A DNA stretch of 64,000 nucleotides, taken from the NCBI GenBank assembly GCA_006384855.1, contig VCJN01000960.1, positions 1 to 64,000 on the forward strand, read 5' to 3'. The stretch is from Tetraselmis striata. Taxonomy: Eukaryota; Chlorophyta; Chlorodendrophyceae; Chlorodendrales; Chlorodendraceae. The position numbers and the translations under genes were made by a program. Position 1 is the first letter of the stretch. The number at the start of each line of letters is the position of its first letter. A model generated the notes under the pieces. It was not told the origin of the DNA and searched no databases. It saw nothing but the letters and a program-made list of their open reading frames with translations. Shown one piece after another: positions 12,020 to 61,338 of the stretch.

Positions 12020-13891
12020 ATGCAACATTCAAGAAATCCATACAGAAATCCAAAAACAAATCCAGAAGGAAATCCAGCAGTACCATCTACTACTACTCTT
12101 AGAGACGCTGCAAGGGTTTCACTGGTGCCAAGCCTGTCCCGGGGGCGGAAAAAAACCATCTACTACCTATCACTCCTATTACCTATCAGTACTCCGCATG
12201 CGCGCCGCCCGCCATGGTCCAAGCCGCACCCCTCCGCCCCCCTTTCCCCAACCACACCCGCTCCCCTCCCCATCCCCGCAGCCAATCCACCGCCGGCGCG
12301 CATCCCCGAGTCACCCGCGGCACCGTCCGAGGCAGCTTCACAGCACCTATCTTCGCCCGTCGGTCCGCGCTTCACGGTGATGATGACTCCGCATGCGCGC
12401 CGCCCGCCATGGTCCAAGCCGCACCCCTCCGCCCCTCTTTCCCCGACCACACCCGCTCCCCTCCCCATCCCCGCAGCCACACCACCGCCGGCGCGCATCC
12501 CCGAGTCACCCGCGGCACCGTCCGAGGCAGCTTCACAGCACCTGTCTGCGCCCGTCGGTCCGCACTTCACGGTGATGACTCCGCATGCGCGCCGCCCGCC
12601 ATGGTCCAAGCCGCACCCCTCCGACCCCCTTTCCCCAACCACACCCGCTCCACCGCCGGCGCGCATCCCCGAGTCACCCGCGGCACCGTCCGAGGCAGCT
12701 TCACAGCACCTGTCTTCGCCCGTCGGTCCGCACTTCACGGTGATGACTCCGCATGCGCGCCGCCCGCCATGGTCCAAGCCGCACCCCTCCGCCCCCCTTT
12801 CCCCAACCACACCCGCTCCCCTCCCCATCCCCGCAGCCACACCACCGCCGGCGCGTATCCCCGAGTCACCCGCGGCACCGTCCGAGGCAGCTTCACAGCA
12901 CCTGTCTTCGCCCGTCGGTCCGCACTTCACGGTGATGATGACTCCGCATGCGCGCCGCCCGCCATGGTCCAAGCCGCACCCCTCCGCCCCTCTTTCCCCA
13001 ACCACACCCGCTCCCCTCCCCATCCCCGCAGCCACACCACCGCCGGCGCGTATCCTCGAGTCACCCGCGGCACCGTCCGAGGCAGCTTCACAGCACCTGT
13101 CTTCGCCCGTCGGTCCGCACTTCACGGTGATGACTCCGCATGCGCGCCGCCCGCCATGGTCCAAGCCGCACCCCTTCGCCCCCCTTTCCCTAACCACACC
13201 CGCTCCCCTCCCCATCCCCGCAGCCACACCACCGCCAACGCGCATCCCCGAGTCACCCGCGGCACCGTCCGAGGCAGCTTCACAGCACCTATCTTCGCCC
13301 GTCGGTCCGCACTTCACGGTGATGACTCCGCATGCGCGCCGCCCGCCATGGTCCAAGCCGCACCCCTCCGCCCCCCTTTCCCCAACCACACCCGCTCCCC
13401 TCCCCATCCCCGCAGCCACACCACCGCCGGCGCGCATCCCCGAGTCACCCGCGGCACCGTCCGAGGCAGCTTCACAGCACCTGTCTTCGCCCGTCGGTCC
13501 GCACTTCACGGTGATGACTACTCCGCATGCGCGCCGCCCGCCATGGTCCAAGCCGCACCCCTCCGCCCCTCTTTCCCCAACCACACCCGCTCCCCTCCCC
13601 ATCCCCGCAGCCACACCACCGCCGGCGCGTATCCCCGAGTCACCCGCGGCACCGTCCGAGGCAGCTTCACAACACATGTCTTCGCCCGTCGGTCCGCACT
13701 TCACGGTGATGATGACTCCGCATGCGCGCCGCCCGCCATGGTCCAAGCCGCACCCCTCCGCCCCTCTTTCCCCAACCACACCCGCTCCCCTCCCCAACCC
13801 CGCAGCCACACCACCGCCGGCGCGTATCCTCGAGTCACCCGCGGCACCGTCCGTACTACGCCGTAGTCTCTTGTTGCTTACGCTTTTGTAA
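12020..13891 (+). CDS. Pro-rich repeat open frame, doubtful gene
   Basis: A 623-residue frame from an ATG at 12020 is almost wholly built of a 64-65-residue Pro/Ala/Ser-rich repeat (HARRPPWSKPHPSAPLSPTT...). The other two forward frames and one reverse frame are also open over most of the array, so openness alone means little. In favour: every unit length is a multiple of three, and recurrent differences (CCC/CCT, CGC/CGT, CTG/CTA) fall on third positions in this frame. Against: other changes are replacements, the leader is low complexity and contains the dispersed 22-bp motif, and no known domain is present. Confidence 0.25.
   Translation: MQHSRNPYRNPKTNPEGNPAVPSTTTLRDAARVSLVPSLSRGRKKTIYYLSLLLPISTPHARRPPWSKPHPSAPLSPTTPAPLPIPAANPPPARIPESPAAPSEAASQHLSSPVGPRFTVMMTPHARRPPWSKPHPSAPLSPTTPAPLPIPAATPPPARIPESPAAPSEAASQHLSAPVGPHFTVMTPHARRPPWSKPHPSDPLSPTTPAPPPARIPESPAAPSEAASQHLSSPVGPHFTVMTPHARRPPWSKPHPSAPLSPTTPAPLPIPAATPPPARIPESPAAPSEAASQHLSSPVGPHFTVMMTPHARRPPWSKPHPSAPLSPTTPAPLPIPAATPPPARILESPAAPSEAASQHLSSPVGPHFTVMTPHARRPPWSKPHPFAPLSLTTPAPLPIPAATPPPTRIPESPAAPSEAASQHLSSPVGPHFTVMTPHARRPPWSKPHPSAPLSPTTPAPLPIPAATPPPARIPESPAAPSEAASQHLSSPVGPHFTVMTTPHARRPPWSKPHPSAPLSPTTPAPLPIPAATPPPARIPESPAAPSEAASQHMSSPVGPHFTVMMTPHARRPPWSKPHPSAPLSPTTPAPLPNPAATPPPARILESPAAPSVLRRSLLLLTLL
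12133..12154 (-). repeat. dispersed 22-bp motif (inverse)
   Basis: CCTGTCCCGGGGGCGGAAAA(AA), a full-length match to the consensus, located just before the Pro-rich minisatellite. Confidence 0.6.
12191..13857. repeat. Pro-rich 195-bp minisatellite, nine units
   Basis: Units start at 12191, 12386, 12578, 12746, 12941, 13133, 13325, 13520 and 13715. The eight complete units are 195, 192, 168, 195, 192, 192, 195 and 195 bp; the ninth is truncated. Each starts ACTCCGCATGCGCGCCGCCC. Length differences are 3 bp (GAT repeats at the junction) and one 24-bp deletion. Confidence 0.95.
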
Positions 13892-14064
13892 TCCAAACCT
13901 ATCAGTACTACTCCACCCCGTCACCCAGCGTTATCCAAATCCATAAAACTAGTCCACTACCCTGTATGACTGTATCCGGGTAGCGACTACCTGCTGTAGT
14001 CGCTACAGGTACCTGTACTACTGTAGTATTTTTTTGGTTAATACAGGGAGAGTCACCCTTTTTG

Positions 14065-17386: not shown

Positions 17387-20300
17387 TTCTGCATGGTGAT
17401 CTCATCCCCCTCATTGCAACCCCCGGAATGCTCCGAAAACAGCGCACATGCAGGGATCGTCGCGCAGCCGTGTTGGGGCAATTGGGCATACTGCATGAGA
17501 ATTGCGTCCTTCCGTTTCACATTCACTGTTCCTTGGCATCCCCAGCCCGGAGCCATGTTGAATTTTGTCCGACTCCCGGATGCTCTCTCAATGCGTACCC
17601 TTGCCTCTCGGGAGACAGGCTGGAGGAGCTGGAGGTTGAGCGAGTCGTGCGGCTGGGGCTGGGCAACCGCGCCCACGCGGTGCGCGCTCTCCCCCGCACG
17701 CCGGACGTCAGCCTCAAGAAGGGGATCTCGGCCCGTGCGGAGTGGGGCGCCATCCAGCTCTGCGTGCTGGTGCGTCCCTGATGCCAGCTTTGCCCCGGAG
17801 CCCCTCTGCCCACACTGTGCAGAGCTAAGCTCAATACGGTTTGCGACCAGTGCATCCACTCTGCAGCATATACGTGGTTTGCAGTGCAGCACACTATGGG
17901 CACTCTGTTTGAAAGATGTATCCTTAGTACTTATGCCAAAGTGTCCTGGATTTGCTATGCTGGGTTCGGTGATTGTCCTCCGCTGCCATGCTTTCCTGGC
18001 ACCCCTTTCCTTCCCTCTTGTATTTCCGGACTGCGGATCTCCCCCTCTCTTCCCCGCCCACCTGCTCCCGATACTTATCTGGGCCCCATCACTCTACCCC
18101 GGTCTCCAGCGTTCACCCCTCCACCAAAGTGAAAAAAGCAGGAACGATGATGTACAATCTTTGTGGGATCTGATGAGCTCCTCCTCCAAGAAGGGCGCGG
18201 ATATCACGAACACAATGTCTGACGTTCCGTTTGCTTTACGCCACTCCTCTCTCTCCTGCCCCCCGTCTCCATGCTCCAGTTGTCAACCCTTCCCCCCCTC
18301 CCCAATCGTGTCCCCCGTTCTTAAGTCGAGTGTCAAGGAGCAAGTGATGCACAAACTTTGTGGGATATATGAGCCCCTCTCCGGAGGGGCACTGATCTTA
18401 CTCATCTAGGTTATTTGTTCTGATGCTCCACCGCCGGCCAGGATGCGGGTCTTGCTCCCTTTGTTCGCCTGTATGTCCTCCTCGCAGCCCCCTAGATTTC
18501 CAGCTCTTGTCCCTCCCCACCTTCGAGGTTTGCTAGTCAGGGCAGGAACAGTGATGTACAATCTTTGTGGGATCTGATGAGCCCCTCCTCCAAAAGTGGG
18601 CGGGCGCGGATATCACAAACACAATGTCTGATGTTCCACCCGCCTGTCCTCCTGCAGTAATCCTGCCGCAGCTGTCCCTGCATAACTCCTCCCACCTCCC
18701 TCACATCCCACAGCCTCTATACAAATTCGCCCCTCCATCCCCGGAAGTGTTGAGGAGCAAGTGATGCACAAACTTTGTGGGATATATGAGCCCCTCTCTG
18801 GAGGGGCACTGATCTTACTTATCTAGGTCATTTGTTCTGATGTTCCACCGCCGGCCAGGATGCGCCTCGTGCCCTTAACATCTTTATATATCCTCCTGCT
18901 AGCCCGCCTCAGGTCTCTGGCTCTTGTCCCTCCCCACCTCTGAGGTTTGCCAGTCAGGGCAGGAACAGTGATGTACAATCTTTGTGGGATCTGATGAGCC
19001 CCTCCTCCAAGGGAGGGGCGTGGATATCACAAACACAATGTCTGACGTTCCGTCACAATGTCCTTCGGTAGTCTTTCGGCCGCAGCTGTCCTTGCATCCC
19101 CGGGTCCACCCCTCCTCTACGCTGCTCCCTTCCTGCAAGCTCTCTACCACGCCTTGATTCGCCCCTCCATCCCCGGAAGTGTCGAGGAGCAAGTGATGCA
19201 CAAACTTTGTGGGATATATGAGCCCCTCTCCGGAGGGGCACTGATCTTACTCATCTAGGTTATTTGTTCTGATGCTCCTGCTTCACTGTCGCTTTTGTCG
19301 CTCTTCGCCTTAACCCTACCTACCTTAAAACTAACCCTCTCCGCGTCCGCATCCCGTCGTCGTCCAGTATGGATCTTTTGCCGACGGCAGGCCAGGAACA
19401 GTGATGTACAATCTTTGTGGGATCTGATGAGCCCCTCCTCCAAGGGGGGGGGCGTGGATATCACAAACACAATGTCTGACGTTCCATCCGCCTGTCCTTC
19501 GGCAGTCATTCGGCCGCAGCTGTCCTTGCATCCCCGGGTCCACCCCTCCTCCACGCTGCTCCCTTCCTGCAAGCTCTGTACCACGCCTTAATTCGCTCCT
19601 CCATCCCCGGAAGTGTCAAGGAGCAAGTGATGCACAAACTTTGTGGGATATATGAGCCCCTCTCCGGAGGGGCACTGATCTTACTCATCTAGGTTATTTG
19701 TTCTGATGCTCCTCCACCGCCGGCCAGGATGCGCCTCGTGCCCTCCACATCTATATATATCCTCCCGCTAGCCCCCCTCAGGTCTCTGGCTCTTGTCCCT
19801 CCCCACCTCTGAGGTTTGCCAGTCAGGGCAGGAACAGTGATGTACAATCTTTGTGGGATCTGATGAGCCCCTCCTCCAAGGGGGGCGTGGATATCACAAA
19901 CACAATGTCTGGCGTTCCGTCACAATGTCCTTTGGCAGTCATTCGGCCGCAGCTGTCCTTGCATCCCCTGGTCCACCCCTCCTCCACGCTGCTCCCTTCC
20001 TGCAACCTCTCTACCACGCCTTGATTCGCCCCTCCATCCCCGGAAGTGTCAAGGAGCAAGTGATGCACAAACTTTGTGGGATATATGAGCCCCTCTCCGG
20101 AGGGGCACTGATCTTACTCATCTAGGTTATTTGTTCTGATGCTCCACCGCCGGCCAGGATGCGCCTCGTGCCCTCCACATCTATATATATCCTCCCGCTA
20201 GCCCCCCTCAGGTCTCTGGCTCTTGTCCCTCCCCACCTCTGAGGTTTGCCAGTCAGGGCAGGAACAGTGATGTACAATCTTTGTGGGATCTGATGAGCCC

Positions 20301-23300
20301 CTCCTCCAAAAGGGTGGTGGGCGCGGATATCACAAACACAATGTCTGACGTTCCGCCATGCCGTTGCACCGCCCTTTCCCCCACTGTGCTCTAAAGGCAG
20401 CCGCCTGGAATCCCCTCTTCTATCTGATGTCCTCGGCAATGACCTGCTGCCCGACCAGGTCAACCCCAAGGAGGCGTCCCGGCTGGTGGACGTAGGCCCA
20501 TCCCCCGACAACATTGCAGAGGCCGCCAAGTTCCGGAAGCTGTGGGGCGAGAAGGCGGAGCTGCGCCGCTTCAAGGTGGTTGCTCGGAAACTGAGACAGA
20601 GTTACAATTGACAAATGAATTAAAGCTGGTGAAGCCCCATCCCACAGCGCTGCCTGACTCGTTTGAGTGGCTGCCACGTGACAGGACGGCAAAATCTGCG
20701 AGGCGGTCGTCTGGGACAGCTCCCCCTCGCAGCGGCACATGATTGTGGAGCAGGCGGTGGCGCACTTGCTGCCGCTGCACTGCTCGGCCTCCCTGGTGGC
20801 CGGCAGCGCGGGGATGCTGGACGCGGCGCTGGTGCCCGCGGTCGCCGCGGCCTCCGGCGACGCGGCCGTGGCCGCCGATGGGGCTACGCTGTCGGTGCGC
20901 GCGATGGAGGGCGCGGCGGATCGGCTGGGCAAGCAGCTCAAGAGCCTGGACGAGGTGCGGCCGGGCGTGGTGGGCATCCAGCCCGTGGGCGCCGCGTTGC
21001 GCGGCACGGCGCTGTTCCCGCCACACCCGCACCCGCTCGCGGGGGGCCCGCCCAGCCGGGGCGACGACGTTGTGGGCCGCTGCCTGGCGCCGGTCGAGCT
21101 GCTGGTGCAGCTGGAGGGCTCAGGTGCGTGACCAACCACCCTGGTCCACCACATACTTCCCTGTTACATGCGTGCGTGCGTGCATATGTGCGTGGCGATT
21201 TTGTCGCAGTCCTCATCGCAGATCGGCGTCACGCCAATGCTGCTACCATTACCGTTGGAAGAGTATCCAGAGGAGACGGGCACACACCTGAGTGCACTGC
21301 GGCACAGTTGAGGGCGGTGATGTAGGTGTATGCGAATGCGTAAGATCACGTGTATGTGTTGTGAATCATTGTCCCCTTGGTTGTCTAAGTATATTAGCTG
21401 GTCCTGGGCGCCACTAGTGGCCAGTAGCGTGCATCCGGCCACTGACACTGCGCACTGCGTGTAGCCTTTGTGGGCACAGCCCTAAGCTCGCTGCTGACAC
21501 CGGCTTGATCGCTGCTGTTGCTGTGCAGGCAACTGGCCGGAGGACAGCATGGAGGCGTTTCTCAACACCAAGGCGGCCGTGGGCGTGCAGCTCGCGGACG
21601 CGCTGTCCTCCTCTTACAACGTCCGGTCCCGGGTCGCTCACGGCCATGTGGTGAGATGTCCCGCTCCTGCCCCTCTCCGCATTCAAGGGAGGCAGAAAGA
21701 AACGTCCCTGTGCTTGACTGGCTTTACCTCGGATCGATGCAGTTTATCTGACACTCTCTTGCGCCGCCCAGGATGTGTTTGTGGACGGCTTCGCGTTTCG
21801 GCTCGTGCTCTTCTCCGACCGCGAGCCCGCCCTGCGGAAGAAGCTGCTGGGCGAGGCGGCGCTCGCGCATCAGGCGCCATCCAGCAACGTCGCCCTGCGG
21901 CAGTGGCACCACGGCGCCATGGCGCTGGTGGGCGGCGAGCACCCCGCGTTTGCCGCCACCGCAAGGTGACCTCCCCCTCTCATCTTGCCGATCCCAATGA
22001 AAGTGACAACGAAGACAATAATGGTCTGTGAAGACTGGGGAACTCAGACACGCCCTGGAAAGTAAATGTAGGCTGACTGTCCGGGCGACAAGTTGCCATA
22101 TTGGTTCGAATGGGGTAACCAGACAGCTCGGCAGCCGAGGGCCTTCCACCCTGCACGTAGGCCTGGTTTGACTTTGGGTGCCGACGCACCTGTCAGAGCC
22201 CTTAGTCCAAGCCTCGAATTGGCGCTTGCGTGCACCCTATACGGACATTCGCGTCATTTTTGTCTGCATTTGACCTCTTGCATAGCAGTTTCTTATGTGC
22301 AGTGTTTTTATAGCCGCGTTGTCAGCCATAATAATTGTGTTCCGCTGTCGGACGTTGGATGGGCAGGCTGGCGAAGCGCTGGATCTCGGGCATGATGATG
22401 GAGGGCACCGTGGCGGAGGAGGCGGTCGAGCTGCTCGTGGCCGCGTGCTCCACCGCCCCCGGCGGCGCGGTGCCCCCGGGCGCCCACACCGCCGGGTTCC
22501 TGCGCTTCCTGGCGCTGCTGGCGGAGCAGCCATGGGACCTTGCGCCGCTGGTGGTGGACCCACACCATGAGCTCACGCGACCCAAGCTGGCAGGCATCCG
22601 GGACGTGTTTGAGGTGCGCCCGGGCACTGTCCACCCGCCCGGCCCGATGCCCCCCCACCAGCCCGCGCCTCGATCGCTGCGCTGACTAGGTCCCGACGAA
22701 CCGGCGTTGTGGGATTGTCCCAACAACTCGAAAGCTTACTGGGCATTCATCTGCCGACGATAGAGCTGCGACAATGAGCAAGAATGCGGTGGCAGTATAT
22801 CATGACATGCCGTTACCATGCCATGGGTTCGTTGCATGTCAGTTTTTGTTCTGACCCCCTCTTTAGTACTTATCATCTGGCAACGCATCATCAGGATGCA
22901 CCGCGGACATGGTGCACAACCTGCGAGCCCATGGTGCAAAACACTTCATTGATTTTGCAACCTGCGAGCACGACTAAACTGTTACGGCACAGGCTCACGG
23001 CTTTGCGCTCCCCTTCACCCCCCCTCACTCTTCCTCTCTCTCCCGCGTGTGCGCGTGTGCGTACCCCCACACGTAAATGCAACCCCCTGCGATCACCTGC
23101 CAGGATGTGTCTGCTGCGATTCCCCCGCTGGCACTGCAGTCTGGGGTCCTGCCCCTCTCCGCCGCCCCTTTCACATCCCCCCTCTGCCCGCCCCGGAATG
23201 GTCCCCCAGGCTGCTCGCGGCAGTGGCGCTCCGGCAATGTTCCTGGCAACTGCCTTTGACCCCGCATCTCTCACCTGGTGCGCCCCCCCGCCCGCAAGCC

Positions 23301-26258: not shown

Positions 26259-26968
26259 GACGCGCCGGTCAGGAACACGATAATTTATAACTTCCGCTCG
26301 GCGAGTTTAACCGCCGTCGGTGCCGACACCGGCGGTGCTGAAGTAGCCGCCGCGTCAAACTATCCACCTACCGCCTGAGCACTGTTCGGCCGCCGCCACC
26401 GCAAAACTTGAGAATCAAGCACGGTTATGCGGTTGCTGGGCTTGGAACTGCACTCGATATCGTGAAGCTGCCTTGTCTTTCTGCGCATCCCGCGGCTCTT
26501 CTCCACCGGCTCAGCAGCGTGGCATCGACCGCCACGGCAGCGCTTGGCAGACGGGCGGATAGAAGATGGGGGCATCATTAGCACGCAGCGGTCCCGCGCC
26601 ATCGATCGATCATATATTACCTGTGGGCTAGCTGCACAAGGCAATCAGGAAATCATCCGAAAGTCAGCCGAAATAACCCGCCATGTCATCAGCGCGACAA
26701 AAAATAATATAATCAATAAGAGCGGTCTGCACCACAAAATAGCGCGATATAATCGCGTACATCACGTTGTGCTTCCGCCAATATTATTGGCTCAAGTGCA
26801 ACCATTTCTGACTCGTCGCAGCGGTTCCGGTTCCCCGGCTTGCTCGCGGCGACAGTAGCGCAGTAGCCACGTCTCGTACGAGCATTAGCATTGGAGTATC
26901 AGTACGAGCATTAGATGACCTATATGATTTCTTATCCATCAAGATAACGGTTTGTTTTAAGTTTTTGG

Positions 26969-59117: not shown

Positions 59118-61338
59118 CTACTCCAGCTCCAGCTCCTCGCGCCCCTGCCAGAAAGTGCGCCCATAATCCACCAGGAGCTCCTCCCCTGCGGGACAGAGCG
59201 GTCATTGTCGTCAGCGCTGAGCAGCCCGATACTTTGTTGGTGCCCAATGCACTCCAGGCACCGGCATGCGCTGCTGCCAGGCTTGCAACCGGCCAGCGAG
59301 ACGCCTACCTGGCCGGATGTCGCGCGAAGCGTAGAACCAGATGCGCCCCTGGCGGCGGTCGTACCAGCGCACGACATTGTTTCGCAGCCTGCCAGCAAGG
59401 AAGCAGGAAGGGAGAAAGGCAGCTCAGCGGCGCTGCGACTGGCCGCCGCATGGCGGATCGCTCTACCCCACCGCCATGACATATAAAATCGCGGTATCGT
59501 GGCAGCGATGACCGGGCCAGGCAGCCTCATGGCCAACCGGTGCTCAAATGCGCGCTAGTAGTAGTATGAACTACATACCAATGCACACGCCCTGTGAGGC
59601 AGCGGGAAAGGCGCCGATGCGACTACGAGAATCCCTAGAAAACGCCTTCAATCGGAGTCGCATATCAGTACACACACCACCTATGGGAACATTCTATGTG
59701 TTTTAATTCCGATGGTATATTAATCTTCTCGTATATCCATTCATTGAATCTAGACAAAATTCCGTGACTATTTGGTATATATTTGGCCTTCGGCAGGTAG
59801 GGCGACTCTCGTTTACTCGCGGTGTAACTGTCACCGCGCCTGCACCCATGCTTAAAGTGGATCACCCGTAGCACATGCGTTGTTGCTGTAGTAGACCCTC
59901 AGCCCGATCCAACGCGGCCTCGTAAGACATGTGGGCCTGCGCTTGTCAATTTGACAACGTTCCGAGACAGTAAGCTCTCAGCTTGGAGTGAGGCGCCGCG
60001 CCGCCCGACCGGCGCGCCTCACCTGGAGTGGTTGACGTGGCCAGCGGTGAAGTCATTCCCCTGGGAGGCAACGGCCGCGTCAATGACGCGCTCGGCATCC
60101 AGCATCATGCAGTAGTCCGACACGCCGTCCGGGTACCTGGACAGATCCGGCGGCCGGTCAGCGCTCGCTGAACCGCACTGTGCCGCCCGAAATGCTGCCA
60201 GCATCGTCGGAAGGGGCTGACCCAGGATGAGAGTTGCCGGCTGTCAGTGACTGGCTGCGGTCGGCGGGGGCGGCTACCTCTGGAAGTACTCCACGTTGCT
60301 CAGCATGTCGCCTTCGTACTCGGTCAGCATCGTGTCCTTGGGGATCGCCGTCGTGGCAAAGGCGCCGCGCCCTGCGCCGAAACCCACAGCAGCAGCGCCC
60401 CATCATGGCAACAGCCGAGGAGACGATGGGGGTGGGGGGGGGTGGGAGAGGAAGGGATGCCATCTGCCGACTGAAGGCAGCCGGAATCGTGCCGCTGCTG
60501 ACAGCAGCTCCAAATAAGCGACTCCTGCGTGCATCTCCTGAGAGCATCCGCATTTACTGACTGCTGCGACCAGCGTCTGTAGACTACTCCCGACTAGACA
60601 GGTCGATGCATCAGGCCACAAAACAACATATTTCCAGGATCCTGGGCATCTTTCTCCGCCCCTAACATTATCTACGCAGAGCATGTGTTAATGCTTGCAT
60701 TGGTGCTGGAATACCGCACAACAGCAGGTGAAACCGCTAATCAAACTGTCATACTAAGTGCTTCTAAGTACACAATTTATTGCACATGCGAAAAGATGGC
60801 TGCGTGGCGCAGACAGTGTATATCCATCGAGTTTTGGCGCGGCACAAAACGGATTTCAAGAGTAAACAAGCGGTTGCCTTTTGAGTCGGTATTCAGACGA
60901 ACGAAAATATCATTGAGTTACAGCGGAATTTGAGAAAGTCCGCCTGGGCGGCCCTCCTAAATCTCTTTAGAATATATACTTTCTTCCTGCCGCACCATGC
61001 CCATACTGCTGTGAGGTGTAGTGGTAATGATACCCATAGTTCAATGATACACTGCACCACACAAAAATATACCTAACAGTATTGTGACACCAAGCGAGAT
61101 GGATGCAATGCACGCCAATTTTGTGGAGTGGTGTAAAGCATGGGAAGCTTTTGCCCCTCCCCTCACTGCCTACCTCGCGCATCGCCCGTCTGGCGCACCG
61201 CCACGTCTCCGGGCCGGATGGCCCCTCCGGAGGGCCGGACGCCCGGTTGCGCATACATGCGCCCGCCGACGCACTCAAGCGTTGCCAGCCGCCCAACCTG
61301 CACGGCACAGTCGCCCCCTGCGCGCCGCCAAGATGCAT
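59118..61338 (-). CDS. SET-domain protein (histone-lysine methyltransferase-like), 5' end missing
   Basis: Five phase-matched exons on the minus strand: 61338-61174, 60371-60278, 60136-60023, 59388-59309, 59185-59118 (stop at 59118). Together ~172 residues forming a SET domain: GDARGRGAFATTAIPKDTML, TEYEGDMLSNVEYFQR, MMLDAERVIDA, the cofactor-site motif GHVNHSRLRNNV, then RIWFYASRDIRPGEELLVDYG and a short acidic tail. NHS (for NHxxxPN) and the ELLVDYG block with its Tyr are the S-adenosylmethionine and catalytic elements, so activity is plausible; the lysine target is unknown. It ends without a post-SET Cys cluster. The intron between the first two exons is 802 nt. N-terminal exons beyond 61338 were not found. 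Confidence 0.8.

Follow-up and report, generated by a model that had tools for sequence, protein, structure and literature searches.

What the short, similar islands in an intron of the Nrap/NOL6 gene of the green alga Tetraselmis striata encode, and what their products might act on, is the question raised by this locus. The window analysed here is a stretch of 64,000 nucleotides from contig VCJN01000960.1. The original prediction, made from the sequence alone, was that the islands are box C/D snoRNAs of two alternating families, here called A and B.

Box C/D snoRNAs are stable RNAs bound by fibrillarin, NOP56, NOP58 and SNU13. They carry box C (RUGAUGA) towards the 5' end and box D (CUGA) towards the 3' end, a terminal stem that draws the two boxes together, and internal boxes D' and C', which are sometimes degenerate. 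Adjoining D or D' are guides that form approximately 10 or more pairs with rRNA or snRNA, following the D+5 rule. Judged by such marks, the islands are very probably box C/D snoRNAs of two paralogous families, arranged as a polycistronic array within the intron.

Array and host intron

The islands were found where the original prediction had placed them, at 18141-20354 of the window, in a strict alternation of six A copies (88-94 nt) with five B copies (Table 1); the B copies do all have the same length (93 bases in 5/5). Pfam Nrap domains are present in four of the six exon ORFs of the host gene that were scanned, and ORFs with this domain flank the array-bearing intron on both sides, in agreement with the assignment of the whole array to one NOL6 intron. 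The consensus donor (17770) and acceptor (ending at 20400) put the reading frame out of phase across the intron, so that the ends given here are approximate. Ribosome-biogenesis genes host many intronic algal snoRNAs, according to excerpts of PMC7671301. No report of NOL6 as a snoRNA host was present among the matches listed in a full-text literature search.

Table 1. Positions of the islands, two antisense elements and the host intron in the window.
Feature	Position	Strand	Basis
A1, candidate box C/D snoRNA, 88 nt, box C ATGATG	18141..18228	+	C/D/stem rule
B1, candidate box C/D snoRNA, 93 nt	18337..18429	+	C/D/stem rule
A2, candidate box C/D snoRNA, 93 nt	18545..18637	+	C/D/stem rule
B2, candidate box C/D snoRNA, 93 nt, terminal-stem G-U	18754..18846	+	C/D/stem rule
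A3, candidate box C/D snoRNA, 90 nt	18962..19051	+	C/D/stem rule
B3, candidate box C/D snoRNA, 93 nt	19186..19278	+	C/D/stem rule
A4, candidate box C/D snoRNA, 91 nt	19395..19485	+	C/D/stem rule
B4, candidate box C/D snoRNA, 93 nt	19620..19712	+	C/D/stem rule
A5, probably degenerate copy, 88 nt, box D CTGG	19831..19918	+	missed by C/D/stem rule
B5, candidate box C/D snoRNA, 93 nt	20053..20145	+	C/D/stem rule
A6, candidate box C/D snoRNA, 94 nt	20261..20354	+	C/D/stem rule
Internal antisense element, A3 (same in six window A copies), complement of CTCATCAGATCCCACAAA	18981..18998	+	approximate yeast 25S, Rfam LSU consensus
Box D antisense element, A3, box D included, complement of TCAGACATTGTGTTTGTG	19028..19045	+	approximate yeast 25S
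Host intron, Nrap/NOL6 gene	17770..20400, ends approximate	+	Nrap ORFs both sides; consensus donor and acceptor

Boxes and terminal stems

Box C (RTGATG) is found in all eleven islands. The form GTGATG, proposed for every one of them, holds for ten, while A1 differs in its first base and still reads RUGAUG. In place of the final A of RUGAUGA, family A has T and family B has C. Similarly, the CTGA expected throughout is present in 10 of 11 islands, the exception being A5. The counterpart of A5 on a second contig carries the same CTGG. A5 is probably a degenerate copy.

A terminal stem of 5-6 pairs closes each of the eleven islands. At pair 4, the A copies have A-U and the B copies G-C, except for G-U in B2, which bears out the earlier observation of a stem change in B2 that keeps pairing. 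Pair 6 is G-C in A1, A-U in A2 and in B, and an A.C mismatch in A3-A6. Two terminal-stem pairs, 4 and 6, are thus altered on both sides with pairing kept. Counting against the snoRNA reading are the A.C mismatch, the damaged box D of A5, the lack of an Rfam match (see below) and the RNAalifold consensus fold, in which the covariation term is unfavourable (+1.93) and just one of 28 predicted pairs is changed on both sides. By eye, a possible D' box (CTGA or ATGA) can be picked out ahead of the apical hairpin, and a possible C' box (GTGGATA in A, CTGATCT in B) beyond it. The families have a common 5' half (C box, antisense element and start of the apical stem) and different 3' halves, and they therefore seem to descend from a single ancestral snoRNA.

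A rule drawn up after the islands had been seen asks for RTGATG, followed at a distance of 50-140 nt by CTGA, and for a stem on the flanks with five or more pairs, two or more of them G-C. It gave 10 matches on the plus strand of the whole window, all within the array. The mean was 0.35 (maximum 3) in 40 shuffles of the window and 0.0067 (maximum 1) in 300 shuffles of the intron. On the minus strand, the sole match is distant (60300-60406). The testable sequence marks of box C/D snoRNAs are therefore present in both families, damage to box D being confined to A5, and this supports the original reading.

Islands, spacers and a second contig

Among the copies in the window, mean pairwise identity is 91.8% for A (6 copies) and 98.3% for B (5 copies), as against 60.4% for the A-B spacers (n=5) and 66.1% for the B-A spacers (n=5). 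This confirms that islands are conserved and spacers diverged; equal divergence of the two, named in advance as evidence against the snoRNA reading, is not what the array copies display. B1 and B3, for example, are 100% identical, while the spacers preceding them are just 34% alike, and beyond the terminal stems the similarity of the islands breaks off. An identity of 91-97% in some spacer pairs points to recent unit duplications; array units h3 and h4 are identical, as are h5 and h6.

A longer version of the array, with 8 A and 6 B copies, is carried by the second contig, which is probably the other haplotype. There, the counterpart of B2 is cut down to a 3' remnant. Between the contigs, the 6 island pairs compared, with 549 bases in all, showed 3 differences, and the 4 spacer pairs compared, with 472 bases, showed 7, a contrast in the same direction as that among copies, but small. 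A DNA search of the assembly returned 14 A and 11 B matches, all on contigs C759 and C2355, and no A or B copies outside these two. A covariance model (R1), run over the window and six loci, recovered 11 and 14 plus-strand copies, as well as weak minus-strand matches (E ~0.1) on B copies (4 and 6).

Relation to described snoRNAs

A covariance search with known snoRNA models, which the original prediction had put forward as a check, brought no match: at the gathering threshold, none of 4227 Rfam families matched anywhere in the window. With E up to 10, the region 17800-20700 gave 8 matches and no relevant snoRNA among them; the sole snoRNA model was sR53, located in the next exon (20504-20561) and scoring 13.7 bits against a threshold of 49. 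Identity with U14, U16 or U24 was dismissed on the known targets of these snoRNAs. The arrangement of the array is of a known type, but the two RNA families match none described in Rfam.

Candidate rRNA targets

Complementarity to rRNA upstream of CTGA had also been suggested as a check. For these comparisons the yeast 25S sequence was an approximate one, not a database record, and the antisense elements were chosen after matches had been seen. The complement of the A internal element, which includes a possible D' box (CTGA), agrees with this yeast 25S at 17 of 19 positions, a score reached by 4 of 2000 shuffles; against the Rfam LSU consensus it has 17 matches, 2 mismatches and 1 gap. For the A box D element, 3 of 2000 shuffles reached the score. 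The B elements gave no significant match (1016 and 1870 of 2000 shuffles reached their scores), and a whole-molecule test gave 0.03 for A and 0.21 for B. The complementarity is thus suggestive for A against the approximate yeast 25S, but no significant target emerged for B.

Wider scans, by shared words and by guide rules, covered nine eukaryotic rDNA contigs from bacterial genome records together with approximate reference rRNAs. Under strict guide rules, D-anchored sites were common to at most two of these rRNAs. Words of 9 bases common to three or four rRNAs comprise two LSU words for A and SSU words for B; the latter fall in the B apical hairpin, and in neither family does such a word lie at the D-anchored guide. 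The best match of the A element lies at the GTPase-associated-centre site in just two of nine database LSU sequences (L018 and L023). In predicted folds, the A internal element is largely paired within the RNA. Elsewhere in the assembly, the A elements were found with at most 1 mismatch only in A copies (14/14 matches each). Two 18S sites were tried for B and rejected: pairing with AAUAAAUAAC (10 pairs, one G-U; yeast A474) is weak and does not correspond to a mapped Arabidopsis site, and at the known Am436/A440 site the alignment is one base off and mismatched.

The rDNA unit of T. striata itself is not assembled, and searches of the assembly found only fragments. These consist of a 5.8S match inside another gene and a sub-threshold one, an 18S fragment at 81% alongside three bacterial-type 16S, and 62 nt of 25S that break off short of the domain I site.

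Taken together, the comparisons suggest the 25S stretches GCTCATCAGATCCCACAAAG and TCAGACATTGTGTTTGTG as candidate pairing sites of family A. Chances are about even that its targets lie just 5' of the GTPase-associated centre and in domain I. In Arabidopsis, Table 1 of PMC8053127 lists no mapped 2'-O-methyl site in either stretch.

Alternative explanations

The tendency of the islands to fold as long imperfect hairpins (minimum-energy folds down to -34.8 kcal/mol, in A4) would suit some other structured small RNA, such as microRNA precursors or intronic hairpins. Such an identity is scarcely credible, since in 10 of 11 copies the C and D boxes lie next to the terminal stem with the spacing of a kink-turn, and it is in that stem that the two-sided changes sit. 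It is also very improbable that the islands are DNA tandem repeats without RNA function, homogenised by gene conversion and unequal exchange. The array is indeed a tandem repeat with recent unit duplications, and its length differs between contigs. However, exchange should carry the spacers along, yet the islands are alike beside spacers that cannot be aligned; moreover, they end at the stems and contain C and D boxes far above chance. The view that they are C/D-type RNA units under selection has good support.

Genuine box C/D snoRNAs might still be orphans, with another RNA target or acting in cis on NOL6 splicing or dosage. The failure of strict rules to find a target in the rRNAs used and the lack of a significant rRNA match for B speak for this, as does the presence of 17 orphan C/D snoRNAs in Ostreococcus tauri (excerpts of PMC7671301). 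On the other hand, both A elements resemble complements of 25S, and the scans covered the rRNA of other organisms rather than that of T. striata. An orphan status is possible though somewhat unlikely; the two predicted small RNAs probably mark or shape ribosomal RNA.

Proposed mechanism

If the islands are rRNA-directed snoRNAs, the NOL6 pre-mRNA would be spliced and the intron then processed, each island being trimmed back as far as the terminal stem and the kink-turn of boxes C and D, the presumed seat of the core C/D proteins. A and B, apparently derived from one ancestor, would now carry different guides beside box D. The likely job would be 2'-O-methylation or chaperoning of 25S rRNA. For the A internal element, the pairing partner may be the strand immediately 5' of the GTPase-associated centre, at the base of H42; for the A box D element, it may be the domain I site. 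The many near-identical copies would raise the dose. A bolder and rather doubtful version makes A a two-site 25S snoRNA of a type unmapped in Arabidopsis. An antisense stretch of ~20 nt spanning the D' box of A would then pair with the rRNA strand where the GTPase-associated centre (P stalk) has its base, and the box D element would pair with domain I. In this role A would keep hold of two distant 25S domains as a folding chaperone, guide methylation at new sites, or both, with a dose set by an allele-variable array in a small-subunit-assembly gene.

Comparison with known systems

The mammalian SNORD115 and SNORD116 clusters consist of many near-identical C/D copies in tandem, in variable number, and the NOL6 array resembles them in this respect. 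In those clusters, however, every copy sits in a separate intron of a non-coding transcript, whereas one intron of a protein gene holds all copies of the NOL6 array, and here two families alternate. Clusters in introns of protein genes are also known from Chlamydomonas reinhardtii, with many duplicated multigene families (Chen et al. 2008, Genetics 179:21, as cited in PMC5122169, PMC7671301 and PMC8226300); the likeness is drawn through the citing papers only. Excerpts of PMC7671301 give 72 intronic snoRNAs for O. tauri, "33% of a large fraction" in ribosome-biogenesis hosts, and two intronic snoRNA clusters. According to the same excerpts, O. tauri snoRNAs are single copy save for 3 exceptions, in contrast to the 11 to 14 near-identical copies of the NOL6 array.

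If the pairing at the GTPase-associated centre is true, a modification or a folding aid is predicted where the Arabidopsis map has none. The locus adds two candidate snoRNA families without an Rfam match, and the two contigs, probably haplotypes, differ in how many snoRNA copies they carry.

An alternating array in the NOL6 intron

The original prediction placed eleven islands of two families, A and B, in an intron of NOL6, and they are present there as claimed, with six A (A1-A6) and five B (B1-B5) copies alternating without exception. Pfam Nrap domains are matched by exon open reading frames on either side of the intron (four of the six scanned); Nrap/NOL6 is the homologue of yeast Utp22. 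The intron junctions, and with them the claimed numbering as intron 8, are unproven, since the consensus donor and acceptor leave the reading frame out of phase.

Features and sites (C2355, second contig bearing the array; L, fetched loci; G000, the assembly)
Feature	Location	Remarks
Island array	window 18141-20354	
Candidate intron donor, acceptor	window 17770, 20400	consensus
Stop-free stretches	window 12020-13920	~585-623 codons, three frames, both strands, over repeated peptide motifs; mark of a minisatellite, not three genes
Segment absent from window	C2355 9451-12674	~3.2 kb; absent at window 26833-26850; possibly an insertion
5.8S rRNA-like stretch	L013 9294-9447 (G000:C870:181294-181447)	155 bits, above Rfam cut-off; amid an apparent protein gene; 18S and 25S not found in the 20-kb stretch examined
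25S rRNA fragment	L058 1427-1488 (G000:C2429)	62 nt, 89% to provisional yeast sequence
Bacterial-type 16S genes	L025 (G000:C2280), L026 (C2317), L027 (C1557)	
Candidate site of A internal element	yeast 25S ~nt 1186-1204	Rfam eukaryotic LSU model positions 1199-1218
Candidate site of A D element	yeast 25S 434-452	D box included

The D box (CTGA) claimed for every island is found in ten of the eleven, while A5 has CTGG. A scan rule devised after the islands were seen (RTGATG, then CTGA 50-140 nt downstream, with 5 or more base pairs in the flanking stem) gave 10 matches across the window's + strand, every one within the array, against a mean of 0.0067 in the shuffled intron (300 shuffles) and 0.35 in the shuffled window (40 shuffles). 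Both families have sharply defined ends, GGAACR...YGTTCC for A islands and GGAGCA...TGYTCC for B islands. In the terminal stem, pair 4 reads A-U in A and G-C in B, except for G-U in B2, which is the claimed change that keeps pairing; at pair 6, A1 has G-C, A2 and B have A-U, and A3-A6 have A.C. The outer motif of B (GGAGCA-AGU-GA-UG opposite CU-GA-UGCUCC) fits a kink-turn. RNAalifold found two-sided change in one of 28 pairs, with an unfavourable covariation term, in an alignment where the B 3' half was misplaced.

Conservation is limited to the islands, as had been proposed: mean identity among window copies is 98.3% for B and 91.8% for A islands, against 60.4% and 66.1% for the two spacer classes. 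The B1 and B3 islands are 100% identical and the spacers preceding them 34% alike. When A copies are aligned, length changes are confined to the apical loop and the stretch from box C to ATGAGC is nearly constant. Alignment of the nine distinct copies gave 49 invariant columns, 35 of them within the first 43 bases of A1 (C box, ACAA.CTTTGTGGGAT, ATGAGC.CCTC); the 3' halves of A and B, including the guide adjoining box D, are unlike. A single ancestral snoRNA that duplicated and changed its D guide would explain this common 5' part and the unlike 3' halves.

Variation in array length

DNA searches of the assembly (224 Mb, 2903 contigs) found no A or B copies beyond the window contig, C759, and C2355. 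The latter begins within the same NOL6 intron; its first 19.6 kb are collinear with the window, with interruptions, at 97.0% identity outside the array (6495 aligned columns). The simplest reading is that C2355 represents the other haplotype, a segmental duplicate being a possible alternative. It carries eight A and six B copies, its units h3 and h4, and likewise h5 and h6, are identical, and the counterpart of B2 survives as a 3' remnant alone. The array therefore changes in length, probably by unequal exchange. Across the two contigs the contrast between islands (3 differences in 549 bases, six pairs) and spacers (7 in 472, four pairs) is small.

Relation to known snoRNA clusters

Intronic snoRNA clusters were said to be known in green algae, and two are indeed described in Ostreococcus tauri, where many of the 72 intronic snoRNAs have ribosome-biogenesis genes as hosts (PMC7671301); the present array resembles these in being intronic and in the function of its host. 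Chlamydomonas snoRNAs are described as clustered and multigenic (PMC7671301). The suggested covariance check failed to match a known model, an Rfam search of the window being empty for both families. In one survey, land-plant snoRNAs except U14 and snoR96 had no identifiable green-algal homologues (PMC5122169); such poor homology may explain the empty result, provided that the source is a green alga. Among titles and abstract openings returned by a literature search for snoRNA with NOL6 or Utp22, no host role was reported. The arrangement belongs to a known kind, of which this member is new.

Putative rRNA targets

Universal 18S and 25S words had zero matches in the assembly, the rDNA of the organism being found as fragments alone. 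One contig with a bacterial-type 16S gene, C2280, may be a bacterial contaminant; another, C2317, may be organellar, because its ORFs resemble LAGLIDADG endonucleases by eye. Targets were sought in a provisional yeast rRNA sequence and in nine eukaryotic rDNA contigs (LSU in all nine, SSU in five) from records filed as bacterial genomes (L015-L023), which are contaminated, since they bear eukaryotic LSU rRNA.

Strict guide-rule scans of these references found no site common to more than two rRNAs; one site common to two (L018 and L023) is that of the A internal element, at the base of H42. The complement of this element, GCTCATCAGATCCCACAAA, agrees with the provisional yeast 25S at 17 of 19 positions and with the Rfam consensus at 17, with two mismatches and one gap. 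The matched strand lies just 5' of the GTPase-associated centre. The yeast score was reached in 4 of 2000 shuffles and that of the A D element in 3 of 2000, figures that are flattering because the elements were picked after the matches were seen. That the H42-base site is the best match in only two of the nine database LSU sequences (L018 and L023) counts against it as a target. The A D element, taken with its D box, resembles its candidate yeast 25S site, and the D element of B has no significant match (1870 of 2000 shuffles). The B internal element aligns at A's site because of its kinship with A, without significance (1016 of 2000). An earlier test over the entire molecule, with 300 shuffles per family, had yielded 0.03 (A) and 0.21 (B).

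The sequence itself shows boxes, stems, conservation confined to the islands and a difference in array length, and we infer that the islands are transcribed, processed, bound by protein and directed to targets. Most likely, the NOL6 intron would be processed into separate snoRNPs acting on the large subunit, and the many copies would raise output. By yeast-Arabidopsis correspondence, A's two sites presumably fall within the Arabidopsis 25S intervals A1143-A1263 and G399-A661. Neither interval contains a mapped 2'-O-methyl site in Table 1 of PMC8053127, a study that failed to confirm 145 of 244 sites previously predicted or detected, most often for weak pairing (46.2%). A's sites, if used, would therefore be lineage-specific methylations or chaperone contacts.
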